DNA of 22,312 nucleotides from a virus: positions 1-22,312 of IMG/VR virus record IMGVR_UViG_3300046517_002499; one strand, written 5' to 3'. The notes under the pieces are model-generated. The model searched no databases. It was not told the origin of the DNA and saw only the letters and a list, made by a program, of their open reading frames with translations. The translations under genes and the position numbers were made by a program. Positions 3,391-22,312 of this stretch are shown here, in pieces (the stretch's first letter is position 1; each line of letters begins with the position of its first letter).

Positions 3391-3538
3391 GATCTAGGTC
3401 CTCTCCGCGAGCGATTCGATCGCATCGCACCGACGGGAGCGCGCACGCTCACCGACGGGGGAAGTCGTAACTGCATGCTTTTGCATGCAAATCACCGACG
3501 GTGTTGACCGGCGCATGCTCGGAGATCCATCGTTGAGC
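3391..3538. promoter_or_regulatory. Divergent intergenic control region with repeats
   Basis: This 148-bp spacer separates the minus-strand fibre gene (start 3390) from the plus-strand lipoprotein (start 3539). It holds GAGCGATTCGA (3409-3419), CACCGACGGGAGCG (3428-3441), CACCGACGGGG (3450-3460), CACCGACGGTG (3493-3503), the 10-bp palindrome TTGCATGCAA (3481-3490) and the left arm of a 10-bp inverted repeat (3511-3520). TTGACC at 3504-3509 could be a -35 for the lipoprotein, but no convincing -10 follows. The first two motifs also occur in the other intergenic block at 19483-19691. Confidence 0.55.
3428..3503. repeat. Three CACCGACGG-core repeats
   Basis: Copies start at 3428, 3450 and 3493 (22 and 43 bp apart). 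The first, CACCGACGGGAGCG, is identical over 14 bp to the copy at 19577-19590. The array lies about 38 nt upstream of the minus-strand start at 3390, so in the direction of transcription it reads CGCTCCCGTCGGTG. Confidence 0.65.
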
Positions 3539-3542
3539 ATGC
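3472..3542. repeat. Cluster of four GCATGC palindromes
   Basis: GCATGC occurs at 3473, 3483, 3513 and 3537, four times in 70 bp, against only scattered single copies in the rest of the window. The copy at 3483 is inside the 10-bp palindrome TTGCATGCAA. The last two are embedded in the arms of the inverted repeat over the lipoprotein start. It looks like an operator array. Confidence 0.5.
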
Positions 3543-3544
3543 GC
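3511..3544 (+). promoter_or_regulatory. Perfect 10-bp inverted repeat covering the lipoprotein start codon
   Basis: GCGCATGCTC (3511-3520) and GAGCATGCGC (3535-3544) are exact reverse complements with a 14-nt spacer. In RNA the two inner G-U pairs could extend the stem. The AUG at 3539-3541 lies in the right arm and the only nearby Shine-Dalgarno-like GGAG (3521-3524) at the loop edge, so the hairpin would hide both. The same bases could instead be a DNA operator. Confidence 0.55.
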
Positions 3545-3781
3545 AAGTACCTCGCCTTCCTGGTTCTCCTCGTTGGCTGCGGAACCGCCGCCCTCCCCGT
3601 CAATCCCGCCGACGGCTCGATCGACGCCGATGCAGTCGACGCCGGCCCCTGCGGCGCGGTCGGCGAGCGCTGTTGCGCGCCGGCTGAAGCTGCGAAGGCC
3701 TGCGACGTCTTCTCGCCGTTCGGGTGTGGCGTCGAGGGCGTGTGCTGCGCCATCGGCGCCGGCGGCCACTGCATCGAATAG
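3539..3781 (+). CDS. Small Cys-rich lipoprotein, probable moron gene
   Basis: This 80-aa protein is the only supported plus-strand gene. From ATG 3539 it has a short lipoprotein signal: MRKY, a hydrophobic core AFLVLLVG and the lipobox L11-V12-G13-C14. In-frame ATGs at 3515 and 3485 would add a non-signal leader, so 3539 is preferred. The mature part has a linker (NPADGSIDADAVDAG) and eight further Cys at 38, 45, 46, 55, 63, 69, 70 and 78, with two CC pairs, suggesting a disulfide-bonded knot outside the cytoplasm. Gly at +2 gives no inner-membrane retention signal of the E. coli type. Its TAG lies 7 nt from the end of the convergent fibre adaptor gene, and it splits the fibre genes. Known phage lipoproteins often block superinfection; that role is inferred, not shown. 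It has strong coding features but its family is not recognised. Confidence 0.78.
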   Translation: MRKYLAFLVLLVGCGTAALPVNPADGSIDADAVDAGPCGAVGERCCAPAEAAKACDVFSPFGCGVEGVCCAIGAGGHCIE

Positions 3782-10725: not shown

Positions 10726-10896
10726 CTACTTGGAGTCCTCGGTGCGGATCCGGCTGACCGTGTCGAGCCACGCATAGGCCGTCGCTACGGGGAGCGAGAG
10801 CCAGTAGGGGATCGGGGTGTTGAGCGCCATGGCCAACCTCGCGGCGAGGGCTCGAATCGTCTCCGCGGCCGTCGCTACGGAGAGACCGAGCCCGTC
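10726..10896 (-). CDS. E': Tail chaperone frameshift extension (E'/T-like) reached by -1 shift
   Basis: In the -1 frame after the slippery site, 56 codons are open (residues begin DGLGLSVATA) and end at TAG 10728-10726, touching the tape measure ATG. The segment RLAMALNTPIPYWLSLPVAT followed by AYAWLDTVSRI is a compact hydrophobic block of the type found in the second half of tail chaperone fusions. It has no Shine-Dalgarno of its own; an internal ATG lies at codon 23. It would be made as a 111 + 56 residue fusion with the 10875-11228 product, as P2 E+E' and lambda G-GT are. The fusion protein coats the tape measure during tail assembly and is not part of the virion. Confidence 0.8.
   Translation of the reverse strand, partial: DGLGLSVATAAETIRALAARLAMALNTPIPYWLSLPVATAYAWLDTVSRIRTEDSK
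10777..10880. repeat. 14-bp direct repeat in the chaperone extension
   Basis: GGCCGTCGCTACGG occurs at 10777-10790 and 10867-10880, 90 bp apart and so in phase, encoding VATA twice in the -1 frame. The second copy overlaps the loop of the candidate frameshift hairpin. Confidence 0.7.
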
Positions 10897-17401: not shown

Positions 17402-19074
17402 GCTACTGCCTCCTTCGGGGCCGGTTCCTCAGCGACGGACGCCGGCGACGGCGATGCGCCCGAGGGCGGGATCACCTGGTCGGCGCGACGGAGCTTCTCC
17501 TCGCGAGCGCGCACGCGGTGGTTGCGCTCCCAGTTGCCGCCGGTGAGAGCCGCGGTCTCCTGGGTGCGCGTCGAGAAGCCGCCTTCGACGCGCTTCTCGG
17601 CGGCCTCGACTTCCTTCGTCGGATCGAGCTGACCCTGCGCCGGACCGGTCCACTCCGCGCCGCACCAGGCCGCGCGGGTGATCGGGTCGGCGAAGAAGCC
17701 CTTCGCCTCGATGTAGCCGCGGGCCACCGCCTCCTCGAGCCACTGCTCGTAGATCGGCTGGCAGAAGCGCGAAGCCATGCGGAGGCGGCCGACGGCGAAG
17801 CGCTTCCACGCCTCGAGGAGCGCGGCGCGGCTCGCCGAGTAGCTCGACGCGAACTCCATCTCGAGCAGCTCACGCGGCAGGCCAAGGCCCGCGCCGATGT
17901 GCCGGCAGATGGAGCGAACGAAGGGATCGAAGCCGGCATTCGGGCGCCCCGGGTTGACCGCCTCGAGCTTTTCGCCGGGGAGCAGGCCGAGCACCGCGCC
18001 GTTGCCGAGCTGGTAGCTGGCCGGATCGTCGGGGAGCTCCTGCACCTGCGCGCCGGGCGGCAGGACCTGCGCCGGCATCGGCGACGGGCGATCGCTGGTG
18101 ATCGCCGCGGTGAACATCCCCGAGACGACGGCCGCCATGATCTCGGCGTCGCTGTAGCGCGAGAGCTGCTTCAGGCGCTCCATCACCGGCGCGAGGATCG
18201 GGACGCCGCGGCGCTGGCCGGGGCGGTCCGATTCCATGATGTGCAGCACCATGCGCCGGCCCGTCGCTGCGCCGAAGGCCGGGATCTCGTCCCAGTGATT
18301 CCACTGGGCGCCATAGATGCCTCCCTCGATCATCGGCGGGATGGACACCGCGCCGTAGGCGTAGGCGCCATATCCGCCGTAGGTGCCGGGGAGAAACAGA
18401 TCGCCCGGATGAACGCGGGCGACGTAGTAGGAAATTGGCGCGCCATCCTCGTCGACCTTGACGCCGCCGAGGGTGTTCGTTCCGACCGGGTAGGGCCAGG
18501 GATCGGAGACGCGATCGGCCTCGAGGAGCTTGACCTTGAGGTCGTAGCGATCGCCCTGGCGCTGGATCGACGGCAGCATCACGAAGACGTCGCCGCTCAT
18601 GAGCTCCGAGAGACGCGCGAGGGCCTCGAGCTCGCCGAGGTTGCAGCGGCGCGACGCGTCGCAGGAGAGACTGTCGGCCCAGAGCGCGAACTCCCGCTCG
18701 GTGGCCTCTTCCCACTCGATCGCCTGGTCGTCGGAGAGGCCGAGGAACTTGGCGTCGATCTGCGAATTCAGCTTCAGGCCGGCGCCGATCTCGTTGGTCC
18801 GAATCGTCTTCAGCGCGCCGATCGCCAGCGGCTCGCCCATGCAAAGGTCGCGGGAGCGCTGGCGAAGGAGGTCGAGGTTGAGCGTGATGTCGGCGTCGGG
18901 CCCGCCCCGCGAGGTGAGCCACCCGGCCATGCTCTTGGTCTGGCGCGAGGCCCCGTGCTGCGAATAGCCCTGGTTCTTGATCAGCGCGGTTTTCTGGCGC
19001 GCGTGTTCGCGGCGCAGGCCCCATTCGGGGGCGAGCTGCTCGACGAAGCCGAGGGCGCGATCGATGAGTCCCAT
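17398..19074 (-). CDS. Portal protein (lambda gpB family)
   Basis: The 558-aa protein starts at ATG 19074 (MGLIDRALGFVEQL), sharing one base with the TGA of the upstream small gene; the open frame to 19215 overlaps that gene and is rejected. Lambda-portal features: SRDLCMGEPLAIGALKTIRT followed by NEIGAGLKLN (residues ~74-103), SGDVFVMLPSIQRQGDRYDL, KVKLLEADRVSDPWPYPVG, RRGVPILAPVMERLKQLSRY, and FVRSICRHIGAGLGLPRELL followed by EMEFASSYSASRAALLEAWK. It is the twelve-fold ring through which terminase packs DNA. The last ~70 residues are charged and flexible. High confidence. Confidence 0.95.
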   Translation of the reverse strand: MGLIDRALGFVEQLAPEWGLRREHARQKTALIKNQGYSQHGASRQTKSMAGWLTSRGGPDADITLNLDLLRQRSRDLCMGEPLAIGALKTIRTNEIGAGLKLNSQIDAKFLGLSDDQAIEWEEATEREFALWADSLSCDASRRCNLGELEALARLSELMSGDVFVMLPSIQRQGDRYDLKVKLLEADRVSDPWPYPVGTNTLGGVKVDEDGAPISYYVARVHPGDLFLPGTYGGYGAYAYGAVSIPPMIEGGIYGAQWNHWDEIPAFGAATGRRMVLHIMESDRPGQRRGVPILAPVMERLKQLSRYSDAEIMAAVVSGMFTAAITSDRPSPMPAQVLPPGAQVQELPDDPASYQLGNGAVLGLLPGEKLEAVNPGRPNAGFDPFVRSICRHIGAGLGLPRELLEMEFASSYSASRAALLEAWKRFAVGRLRMASRFCQPIYEQWLEEAVARGYIEAKGFFADPITRAAWCGAEWTGPAQGQLDPTKEVEAAEKRVEGGFSTRTQETAALTGGNWERNHRVRAREEKLRRADQVIPPSGASPSPASVAEEPAPKEAVA

Positions 19075-19236: not shown

Positions 19237-19482
19237 CTAGAGGTCCCTCGGCATGACGCGGAAGATCGGAATCCCGGCGCGCTTGCCCGCGTTGATCTGG
19301 TCGACGGCCTGGTCGTACTTCGAAAACTGTTGCTGGACGTATTTCGCGTCGACACGGGTCAAGGTTCGACCGGCGATGGTGTAGCTTTGCCCCGTCGCCA
19401 AGGCCTGCAACGCCGCCAACCAGGCGGCGCGGAGGGCTTGGGCTTCTTCGAGCGACAGGGCCATCGCACGAAGAAAAGCCAC
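19237..19482 (-). CDS. Small head-joining protein, DUF6148/gpW-like
   Basis: The frame allows GTG 19482 (81 aa) or ATG 19464 (75 aa, MALSLEEAQALRAAWLAALQ). The second start gives the usual N-terminus for this family, although an AAGG lies upstream of the first. The core is QALATGQSYTIAGRTLTRVD, then AKYVQQQFSKYDQAVDQINA and a basic end (GKRAGIPIFRVMPRDL). That is the helix, beta-hairpin (x-Y-x-I-x-G-R-x-L-T), helix plan of lambda gpW, which plugs the portal after packaging and readies the head for tails. Its place between terminase and portal agrees with lambda order A-W-B. The 209-bp repeat block lies just upstream. Confidence 0.85.
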   Translation of the reverse strand: MAFLRAMALSLEEAQALRAAWLAALQALATGQSYTIAGRTLTRVDAKYVQQQFSKYDQAVDQINAGKRAGIPIFRVMPRDL

Positions 19483-19530
19483 AGCGCGATCAGCCTTGCC
19501 AGGGTTGCCCCTCGCAGTTTCGGAGGGTCT

Positions 19531-19655
19531 CAGCGACGGGAGCGATTCGAGGTGTATGACAGAAATTCGAGGCCTTCACCGACGGGAGCGAACTTTCGAA
19601 ACACCGAAAGTGTCATACGTTTTCGCGATTTTTCCGGCCGCCACCGACGGGGACG
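19531..19655. repeat. Three CA(C/G)CGACGGG boxes
   Basis: Boxes start at 19531 (CAGCGACGGGAGCG), 19577 (CACCGACGGGAGCG) and 19642 (CACCGACGGGGACG). The middle one is identical to the copy at 3428-3441. GAGCGATTCGA at 19540-19550, overlapping the first box, is identical to 3409-3419. Confidence 0.7.
19592..19611. repeat. 7-bp inverted repeat with 6-nt loop
   Basis: ACTTTCG (19592-19598) pairs with CGAAAGT (19605-19611) across AAACAC. The right arm runs into the first AGTGTCATAC box. There is no T-run after it on either strand, so it is more like an operator than a terminator. Confidence 0.5.
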
Positions 19656-19686
19656 GAGTGTCATACACTTCGAGGTCGATTTTTCC
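19609..19686 (-). repeat. Two tandem promoter-like cassettes
   Basis: In the minus direction GGAAAAATCG (19686-19677 and 19635-19626) is followed by GTATGACACT (19666-19657 and 19618-19609) at 10- and 7-nt gaps. GTGT and ACAC form half-sites about ATG, so each GTGTATGACAC-like box is nearly palindromic. Confidence 0.55.
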
Positions 19687-19691
19687 GCGGA

Positions 19692-19898
19692 TTAGGGGCC
19701 GACGCCGCGCGAAAACACGCGCCGGCGCGGAGCTGGCGCTACCGGGGCGGGTTTCTGCTCCTGCTCCATGATCGCGACTCCGCGCTGCATCGCGAGCCGC
19801 GCCGCCGTCGAGAAGTCCACGCCGAGCACGCGAGCCAGGGCCTCGAGGCGCTCGACGAGGCCGTCGGGCAGACGGATCGTTTTGGGCTTCGCGCTCAC
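19692..19898 (-). CDS. Ribbon-helix-helix protein with terminase-like C-terminal tail
   Basis: The 68-aa protein starts at GTG 19898 in a GTGA overlap with the large terminase, with a strong AGGGGG Shine-Dalgarno on its strand. Residues 6-45 (KTIRLPDGLVERLEALARVL, then GVDFSTAARLAMQRGVAIME) form the strand, helix, helix plan of CopG/Arc-type DNA-binding dimers. A Pro/Ala linker follows, then RRRVFSRGVGP (58-68). The large terminase just upstream ends in RRRVYSRGIG after a similar Pro/Ala linker. The codons for the shared motif differ at most positions, so it is not a recent DNA duplication. The protein may bind the repeats in the adjacent block and, through the tail, the same head partner as terminase. 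DNA-binding fold is likely; target and tail role are inference. Confidence 0.85.
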   Translation of the reverse strand: MSAKPKTIRLPDGLVERLEALARVLGVDFSTAARLAMQRGVAIMEQEQKPAPVAPAPRRRVFSRGVGP

Positions 19899-21733
19899 CC
19901 GATCCCCCTTGAGTAGACCCGTCGTCGAGGAGCTCGAAACGGCGCGGTAGCCGGCGCCGGCGATCCGCGGCGATTCTCCTCGGCCGCGGCGAGCTGCGCG
20001 AGGTAGGCGTCGCCGCCGTTCGTCGAGACCACCAGCTCCATCGCCGCCGTCGCATAGACCCGGCAGTCGAGGGGCTCGTTACGTGCGTACGTCTGCACCC
20101 ACCCGAGGACTCGGCGTCCGGCGCGCACCTTGGCCTTCCGTCGCTCCGAGACCAGGCCCTTGAAGTACTCGGCGTCGTAGCCGGTCTCGCGTGCGACCGG
20201 GAAGTGACAGGCACCCGGGCCCGGGAGCGCCAGCATCAGCCGCGAGTAGAGGACACCCTTCGCGCCGTCGACGCCGACCGCGAAGAGGTTCGCGCCCAGC
20301 TTGTTGAGCGTCGGCTTCCCGACGATTGGCCGGCCGTCGCCGGCGTAGCCTTTGATCGCGAAGACGTTGCGCGCCGTGCGATCGCGGCAGAAGGCGTAGA
20401 CCTCGTCGGTGCGGTGGCCGCCCGAGTCGACGCATGCGCACCAGAGCGGGACCTTCGACTCGTCGGGGCGCGACCAGGTGCGCGCGAGAAGCGCATCGAG
20501 TGCCAGCCACGGCGCCGGCGTCGAAGTGTCGCCCGGCAAGATCGCGTAGTGAATGCCCCAGGATTCTTTCGACGCGCCCCAGCCGACTACCTCGACCTCG
20601 AGGCGGTTGTCCTGCACGTCGACGCCGGCGACGAGGAGGAGGACGCCGTCGGGGATCTCGGCTTCGTACTCCTCGCGATTCTTCTCGAGCGCCTCGACGG
20701 TGATCTCGTCGCCGGCCTCCGACCAGGTCTCGCCCAGGCGCAGGTTGACGAACTCCTGCAGGCCGCGCTTGTCGCGATCGCGGTTGGCCTTCACCCACTC
20801 GGCGGCGAGCTCCGACCAGCGCACCCACGGTGAGTAGAGACCCGAGAGCTGATAGCCGCGGTAGGCGTGGCCCGGATTGTCCGCGCGCCACTCGCAGGCC
20901 TCGAGCAGCTCGGGGCGATCGCGCTCCTCGATGCGGCCTTTGCAGTGCGCGCAGCGGTAATGCGTCCCGGGGAGGTCGACGTCGCCGGCGGCGTTCTTGT
21001 AAATCACGTCGGACCACTCGAGCACCTGGTAGGCGCCGCACCGAGGACAGGGAACCCAGAGCCGGCGCTGGTCGGTGTCCTCGTAGAGCCGCTCGATCCG
21101 CGACTGGCCCTCGATGGTCGGCGTCGAGACCGCGACGATCTTCCGGTTGTGGAAGTTGGCGGTGCGCTGGCGCGCCTGCTCCCACGGATCGCCGTCGCGA
21201 CCGATTGCGTCGGGCCAGCGGTCGAGCTCGTCGCCGAGCACGACGCGGATCGGCCTCGAGGCGAGCGAGGCCGACGACGTCGCCCACGCCATCGCGAGGT
21301 AGCCGCCGGGGAACTGCCGCAGATAGACCGTGTTCGACGGATCGCGCTGGTGCTCGGAGAGCTTGCCGCGCAGCGACGGCGACTCGCGGAACGTCGGCTC
21401 GAGGCGCTCCTTCGAGAACGCGGTGGCCGCGCCCTCGGTCGACTGGATCAAGAGCATCGCCGACGGGTCCTGCGAGGCGTAGTAGCCGATCGCGTTCAAG
21501 AGCAGCTCCGACTTCGCGACCTGGCTGCCAGCCTGCACCACCAGGCGCTCGACGGCCGGGTCGGAGATCGCGTCCATCGGCTCGCGCAGGTAGGGGACGC
21601 GCGACGTGCGCCAGGGGCCAGGCTCCGGCGACGTGCCGCGCGGGATCACCCGATGCGCGTCGGCCCACTCCGAGACCGTGAGGTGAGGGCGGGTCACATA
21701 TGACGCCCCGGCGGCACCGCCCCAGAGGCTCAC
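19895..21733 (-). CDS. terL: Terminase large subunit (GpA family)
   Basis: The 612-aa protein is a GpA-type terminase. Residues 1-60 contain the family opening LTVSEWADAHRVIPRGTSPE. The ATPase has AGSQVAKSE (68-76, Walker A-like) and VVLGDELDRW (164-173, Walker B with D168/E169). A zinc-finger-like set C229, C232 (CPRCG), C261, C264 (CAHC) lies between the domains. The nuclease part has AGVDVQDNRLEVEVVGWG (369-386, D372), VDSGGHRTDEVY (435-446, D436), and GYDAEYFKGL (518-527, D520). It cuts concatemeric DNA and drives it into the prohead. The C-terminal segment APRRRVYSRGIG (601-612) matches the tail of the next protein; in lambda the gpA C-terminus binds the prohead portal. The ATG at 21733 overlaps the small subunit stop. 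Confidence 0.96.
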   Translation of the reverse strand: MSLWGGAAGASYVTRPHLTVSEWADAHRVIPRGTSPEPGPWRTSRVPYLREPMDAISDPAVERLVVQAGSQVAKSELLLNAIGYYASQDPSAMLLIQSTEGAATAFSKERLEPTFRESPSLRGKLSEHQRDPSNTVYLRQFPGGYLAMAWATSSASLASRPIRVVLGDELDRWPDAIGRDGDPWEQARQRTANFHNRKIVAVSTPTIEGQSRIERLYEDTDQRRLWVPCPRCGAYQVLEWSDVIYKNAAGDVDLPGTHYRCAHCKGRIEERDRPELLEACEWRADNPGHAYRGYQLSGLYSPWVRWSELAAEWVKANRDRDKRGLQEFVNLRLGETWSEAGDEITVEALEKNREEYEAEIPDGVLLLVAGVDVQDNRLEVEVVGWGASKESWGIHYAILPGDTSTPAPWLALDALLARTWSRPDESKVPLWCACVDSGGHRTDEVYAFCRDRTARNVFAIKGYAGDGRPIVGKPTLNKLGANLFAVGVDGAKGVLYSRLMLALPGPGACHFPVARETGYDAEYFKGLVSERRKAKVRAGRRVLGWVQTYARNEPLDCRVYATAAMELVVSTNGGDAYLAQLAAAEENRRGSPAPATAPFRAPRRRVYSRGIG

Positions 21734-22280: not shown

Positions 22281-22303
22281 AAAACTAGAGCCAGCGCGGG
22301 CTC
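22281..22303 (-). terminator. Weak candidate rho-independent terminator upstream of terminase
   Basis: On the minus strand GAGCC (22303-22299), a six-base loop and GGCTC (22292-22288) are followed by TAGTTTT. The stem is only 5 bp and the T-run four bases, so this is marginal. It would end transcription of whatever lies to the right of the window. Confidence 0.3.
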
Positions 22304-22312
22304 GCTTCGCAC

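Follow-up and report, generated by a model that had tools for sequence, protein, structure and literature searches.

We identified a non-coding block of repeated sites (19465-19691, minus strand) between the gene for a small ribbon-helix-helix (RHH) protein and the gene for a gpW-like head-tail adaptor in a 22,312-base virus window, by which we mean the whole stretch of DNA analysed and the reference for all positions not assigned to another contig. The block is a real element, probably akin to control regions previously described in phages. We propose, with a probability of roughly 0.4, that it is a DNA-level array of binding sites at a moron-type junction and that the RHH protein is its most likely reader.

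The genes surrounding the block are transcribed from the minus strand in the order terS, terL (terminase large subunit, 19895-21733), RHH gene, block and gpW-like adaptor gene (DUF6148/phrog_118, 19237-19464), followed by the genes for a lambda-family portal, a ClpP-like protease, a decoration protein and capsid E, with sheath and baseplate J proteins encoded downstream. The gap was re-measured as 227 bp after moving the start of the gpW-like gene, which is probably the ATG at 19464 and not the GTG at 19482, because the homologue in the related contig L003 starts there with MALTLDEAQ (window: MALSLEEAQ). In the 19237-19482 region we saw no clear ribosome-binding site before this probable start. 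The sequence-only reading had described the block as the only long gap in the operon, a description that did not stand, as positions 3391-3538 (which contain copies of the C site defined below) and 10726-10874 are also open. The latter is a 149-base gap from the tail-assembly chaperone gene to the tape measure gene and is possibly a frameshift extension.

Every repeat reported earlier for the block is present. Read on the plus strand, CA(C/G)CGACGGG occurs three times (inside 19530-19540, 19576-19586 and 19641-19651), AGTGTCATAC at 19609-19618 and 19657-19666, CGATTTTTCCG at 19626-19636 and 19677-19687, and TTCGAGG from 19546, 19566 and 19669. Read along the minus strand, these repeats resolve into motifs A (GGAAAAATCG), B (GTATGACA) and C (CCCGTCGSTGA), arranged as A1 (19677-19686), B1 (19659-19666) and C1 (CCCGTCGGTGG, 19641-19651), then A2 (19626-19635), B2 (19611-19618) and C2 (CCCGTCGGTGA, 19576-19586), then an inverted B3 (19554-19561, plus strand) and C3 (CCCGTCGCTGA, 19530-19540). 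The claimed two-unit order was also seen, with GGAAAAATCG followed by GTATGACACT in both units; the third unit has no A, and its B is inverted. B1 forms the centre of an AGTGT-ATG-ACACT dyad, and both A1 and B1 are conserved in L003.

The block repeats are real and far above chance. Of 209 block bases, 91 fall within 10-mers that recur inside the block. Across 500 dinucleotide shuffles the mean was 1.3 bases and the highest value 22, and no slice of 209 bases taken elsewhere in the window (1085 slices) reached 91. Tandem Repeats Finder called nothing in the block, so we describe it as a set of interspersed sites and reject a simple tandem array.

Terminase and portal scans defined a small, close clade (L003, L004, L112, L113, L114 and L118); L112 starts inside the portal gene and stops short of the junction. 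In L003, whose terminase is 70% identical to that of the window, the block could be aligned over its whole length (score 159.5; shuffles 70.8 ± 6.9), and an ungapped comparison from C1 on showed identical C-site spacings of 65 and 46 bp. Identity between the window and L003 was 30 of 33 bases in the C sites and 35 of 89 bases between them (Fisher p 1.4e-7, a value that treats bases as independent and concerns C sites picked because they recur). The L118 block is rearranged, reading AAATCGAC-N8-GTGGGACA-N8-CCCGTCGGTGG, and also aligned above shuffles (83.5; shuffles 52.0 ± 5.7). For L004 and L114 the block alignment was no better than shuffles, with traces at the motif level only; L004 has the RHH gene, yet its block is shrunken and in part inverted, which counts against a simple pairing of gene and sites. 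In L113 the RHH gene, the C sites and all the repeats are missing, and a lipoprotein-like ORF fills the junction. The sequence-only reading had named, as one ground for its refutation, relatives that lose the repeats while keeping the gene order. The outcome is graded: the repeats are strong in L003, clear in L118, weak in L004 and L114, and absent from L113, where there is no RHH gene either.

Outside this clade, most relatives have terL and the gpW or portal gene tightly packed, with neither an RHH gene nor a C cluster. Other inserts occupy the terL-gpW junction in L144, L166, L187 and L201, some with ORFs that look helix-turn-helix-like by eye. The inserts at L166:2066-2621 and L144:2520-4512 include such ORFs, and terL is 51-53% identical in these cases. 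The junction thus has the feature expected of a moron site, a small gene inserted between genes that are adjacent in relatives, with inserts that vary. A search of public viral contigs with the A-B pattern returned 56 stretches, most of which look like chance matches, because only L059 (the L003 contig) also has exact C sites; the B-C pattern returned 5 stretches, and again only L059 also contained A sites. No DNA similar to the block was found in 50,697 phage records, profile scans with the zinc-ribbon, lipoprotein and RHH proteins recovered no further close relatives, and the portal profile scan recovered none above 54% outside the clade already found.

The gene directly before the block (19692-19898, minus strand) encodes a 68-aa protein that had been read as an RHH protein, and our analysis agrees with this assignment and makes it CopG/Arc-like. 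Its matches to RHH_1 and Arc-like repressor families are weak and below the curated Pfam cut-off, and they agree with one another. The structural model (mean pLDDT 76.7) has an extended N-terminal arm followed by two helices, as for an RHH monomer, and the folds most similar to it are those of CopG and RHH antitoxins, at E-values that are not significant.

The C-terminus of this protein repeats the tail of TerL (RRRVxSRGV) in the window, L003, L004 and L118. In the window, the RHH tail (APRRRVFSRGVGP, 19695-19733, minus strand) and the TerL tail (APRRRVYSRGIG, 19898-19933, minus strand) are identical at 7 of 9 residues, each of the 7 with a different codon in the two genes; in L003, L004 and L118, 5-6 of the 6-9 identical residues differ in codon. 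This suggests that selection has acted on the peptide, rather than that the DNA was recently duplicated. Similar tails end the TerL proteins of more distant phages. In other phages, such as D6E, the positively charged C-terminal arm of TerL is thought to meet the portal (PMC5727402). By likeness to that arm, the tail here may have a portal role, with the difference that in these genomes it is also found on a separate RHH protein, and its presence there suggests that the RHH protein may dock where TerL docks. One could extend this to a coupling of head-gene control to head assembly, in which the DNA-binding domain would sit on the block, the portal or proheads would draw the protein away by its tail, and the state of assembly would be read as transcription at terL-gpW; we regard this extension as very unlikely. 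Searching the literature for RHH proteins beside terminase operators turned up no case.

From these observations, we propose that the C sites, which run along late transcription, and the dyad B sites are most likely recognised by a DNA-binding protein of the phage. The leading candidate would be the RHH protein encoded directly upstream of the block, which would bind along the array as dimers and would thereby govern transcription passing through the junction or leaving it, toward the zinc-ribbon ORF where one is present (see below) and from gpW onward. Binding of the RHH protein to the block is plausible from their adjacency and co-occurrence, although the two could also have been co-inherited through one insertion without interacting. 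Also in favour of the proposal are the recurrence of the sites beside opposite-strand ORFs and the single orientation of all six C sites in the two blocks of the window (both described below), together with the tight terL-gpW packing in most wider relatives, which have neither block nor RHH gene. The arrangement resembles the operators of RHH repressors (Arc, CopG, NikR), where short repeated sites likewise accompany a small RHH protein. The start of B matches the NikR half-site, GTATGA. In the NikR operator the inverted half-sites lie ~16 bp apart, a spacing that B does not fit here.

Part of the sequence-only reading, that of a control block with regulator binding sites, gains indirect support from the fixed C-site spacing kept in L003, the element in L118, the second block described next and the loss of the sites in L113, which has no RHH gene. 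Its other part, a phage-specific promoter, was not borne out, as a search for -35 and -10 hexamers found no site in the block for the one promoter type covered, sigma-70. That reading had overlooked the second block, the opposite-strand ORFs that adjoin such blocks in relatives, and the TerL-like tail of the RHH protein. If the proposal is confirmed, phages of a lambda-like lineage would have a regulatory site array among their packaging and head genes, linked to a DNA-binding protein whose tail is borrowed from the packaging motor, and one could then ask directly whether the control of late genes responds to head assembly. Even with the RHH reading unconfirmed, the block clearly exemplifies how conserved, oriented sites mark the entry points of small genes in phage operons.

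The C motif recurs at a second block in the window (3391-3538, minus strand), which contains three C sites (3427-3437, 3449-3459 and 3492-3502) and a hairpin, TGCATGC-TTTT-GCATGCA, at 3472-3489. It adjoins an opposite-strand lipoprotein-like ORF (3539-3781, plus strand), a putative moron that is 93% identical in L139, the contig of L004; this contig retains both the ORF and the C cluster (18483-18558). No RHH gene lies near the second block, which weighs against reading by the RHH protein. The window has seven intergenic C-like matches. Six fall in the two blocks, all oriented along late transcription, and the seventh (295-304, one mismatch) lies in an unannotated stretch. All 3 C sites in L003 have this same orientation, and one site in L004 is inverted. 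C-to-C distances of 22, 43 and 65 lie near whole helical turns and 46 less so, which is weak evidence.

These features raise the alternative that the C sites are dispersed, oriented sites similar to stoperators, through which a separate immunity repressor encoded off the contig would silence late genes in the lysogen. In Cluster A mycobacteriophages, one orientation of the stoperators predominates (PMC6550527), and the 11-bp C site is likewise short, asymmetric and intergenic, keeps to a single direction with respect to late transcription (in the window, L003, L114, L118 and the moron block of L004) and occurs in gaps at two distant loci. Stoperators are numerous and genome-wide and have a cognate repressor, whereas we found only two clusters within 22-29 kb (the window and the L004 contig, both incomplete), in which the sites stand in threes with other elements, are unrelated in sequence to stoperators, include the inverted L004 copy and are accompanied by no known repressor and no repressor gene on the contigs. 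We therefore consider a stoperator-like role unlikely, while ranking no other alternative above it.

We give the same low standing to the possibility that the block serves a moron gene on the opposite strand as its promoter and operator, under regulation by host factors, and that the window lost the gene and kept the region. An opposite-strand zinc-ribbon ORF, 61% identical between L003 and L118, starts beside the main block in these two contigs, and the lipoprotein-like ORF starts beside the second block, which places C sites upstream of both ORFs. This ORF lies between the RHH gene and the block (L003:2687-2921 and L118:2634-2855) and combines a zinc ribbon with a glycine-rich, membrane-like character. 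Against a moron promoter are the missing sigma-70-like site, the conservation of C2 and C3, which extends away from the ORF, and the fact that the window retains no trace of the ORF. The morons of lambdoid and P22-like phages, with their control regions, are similar in that small extra ORFs (on the opposite strand in the present case) lie between conserved late genes beside their own non-coding region; the present ORFs differ in having no recognised sigma-70-like promoter or terminator pair and in being accompanied by repeated oriented sites.

It is more doubtful that the short repeats are boundaries at which recombination exchanges small genes, with no regulatory role. The inserts at the junction do vary (RHH, zinc-ribbon, lipoprotein-like in L113 and helix-turn-helix genes in L166), but the repeats lie on only one side of each opposite-strand ORF, and homologous exchange requires neither fixed spacing nor site-by-site conservation.

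It is very unlikely that the block acts within the late or the opposite-strand transcript as a structured RNA or a terminator. A hairpin plus T-run was scored at 19605-19625 on the plus strand, and strong hairpins occur in L003 and L118, but these differ in place and sequence among the relatives, and folding of the window block was no better than that of shuffles (z -0.05 sense, -0.47 antisense), with no match to an Rfam family. An RNA element was rejected on these grounds, the L118 hairpin (z -2.52) not being shared in place, and the lack of both a fold signal and an Rfam family favours a role at the DNA level, as in the binding-site array that we propose.

Least probable of all is that the block serves packaging, as a cos or pac site whose repeats bind terminase, although its nearness to terL and to a protein with a TerL-like tail might suggest this. 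The second block sits in the tail-fibre region, and the contigs of the window, L004, L113 and L118 share an end, GGTGC(G/T)AA, just upstream of terS, the position expected of cos, so this assignment was rejected. These four contigs begin with GGTGCGAAGCGAGCC or a close variant. As independent contigs that end at one place indicate a physical genome end, cos probably lies upstream of terS, where the conserved end GTGCGAAGCGAGCCC (22298-22312, minus strand) is its probable terminus in the window.
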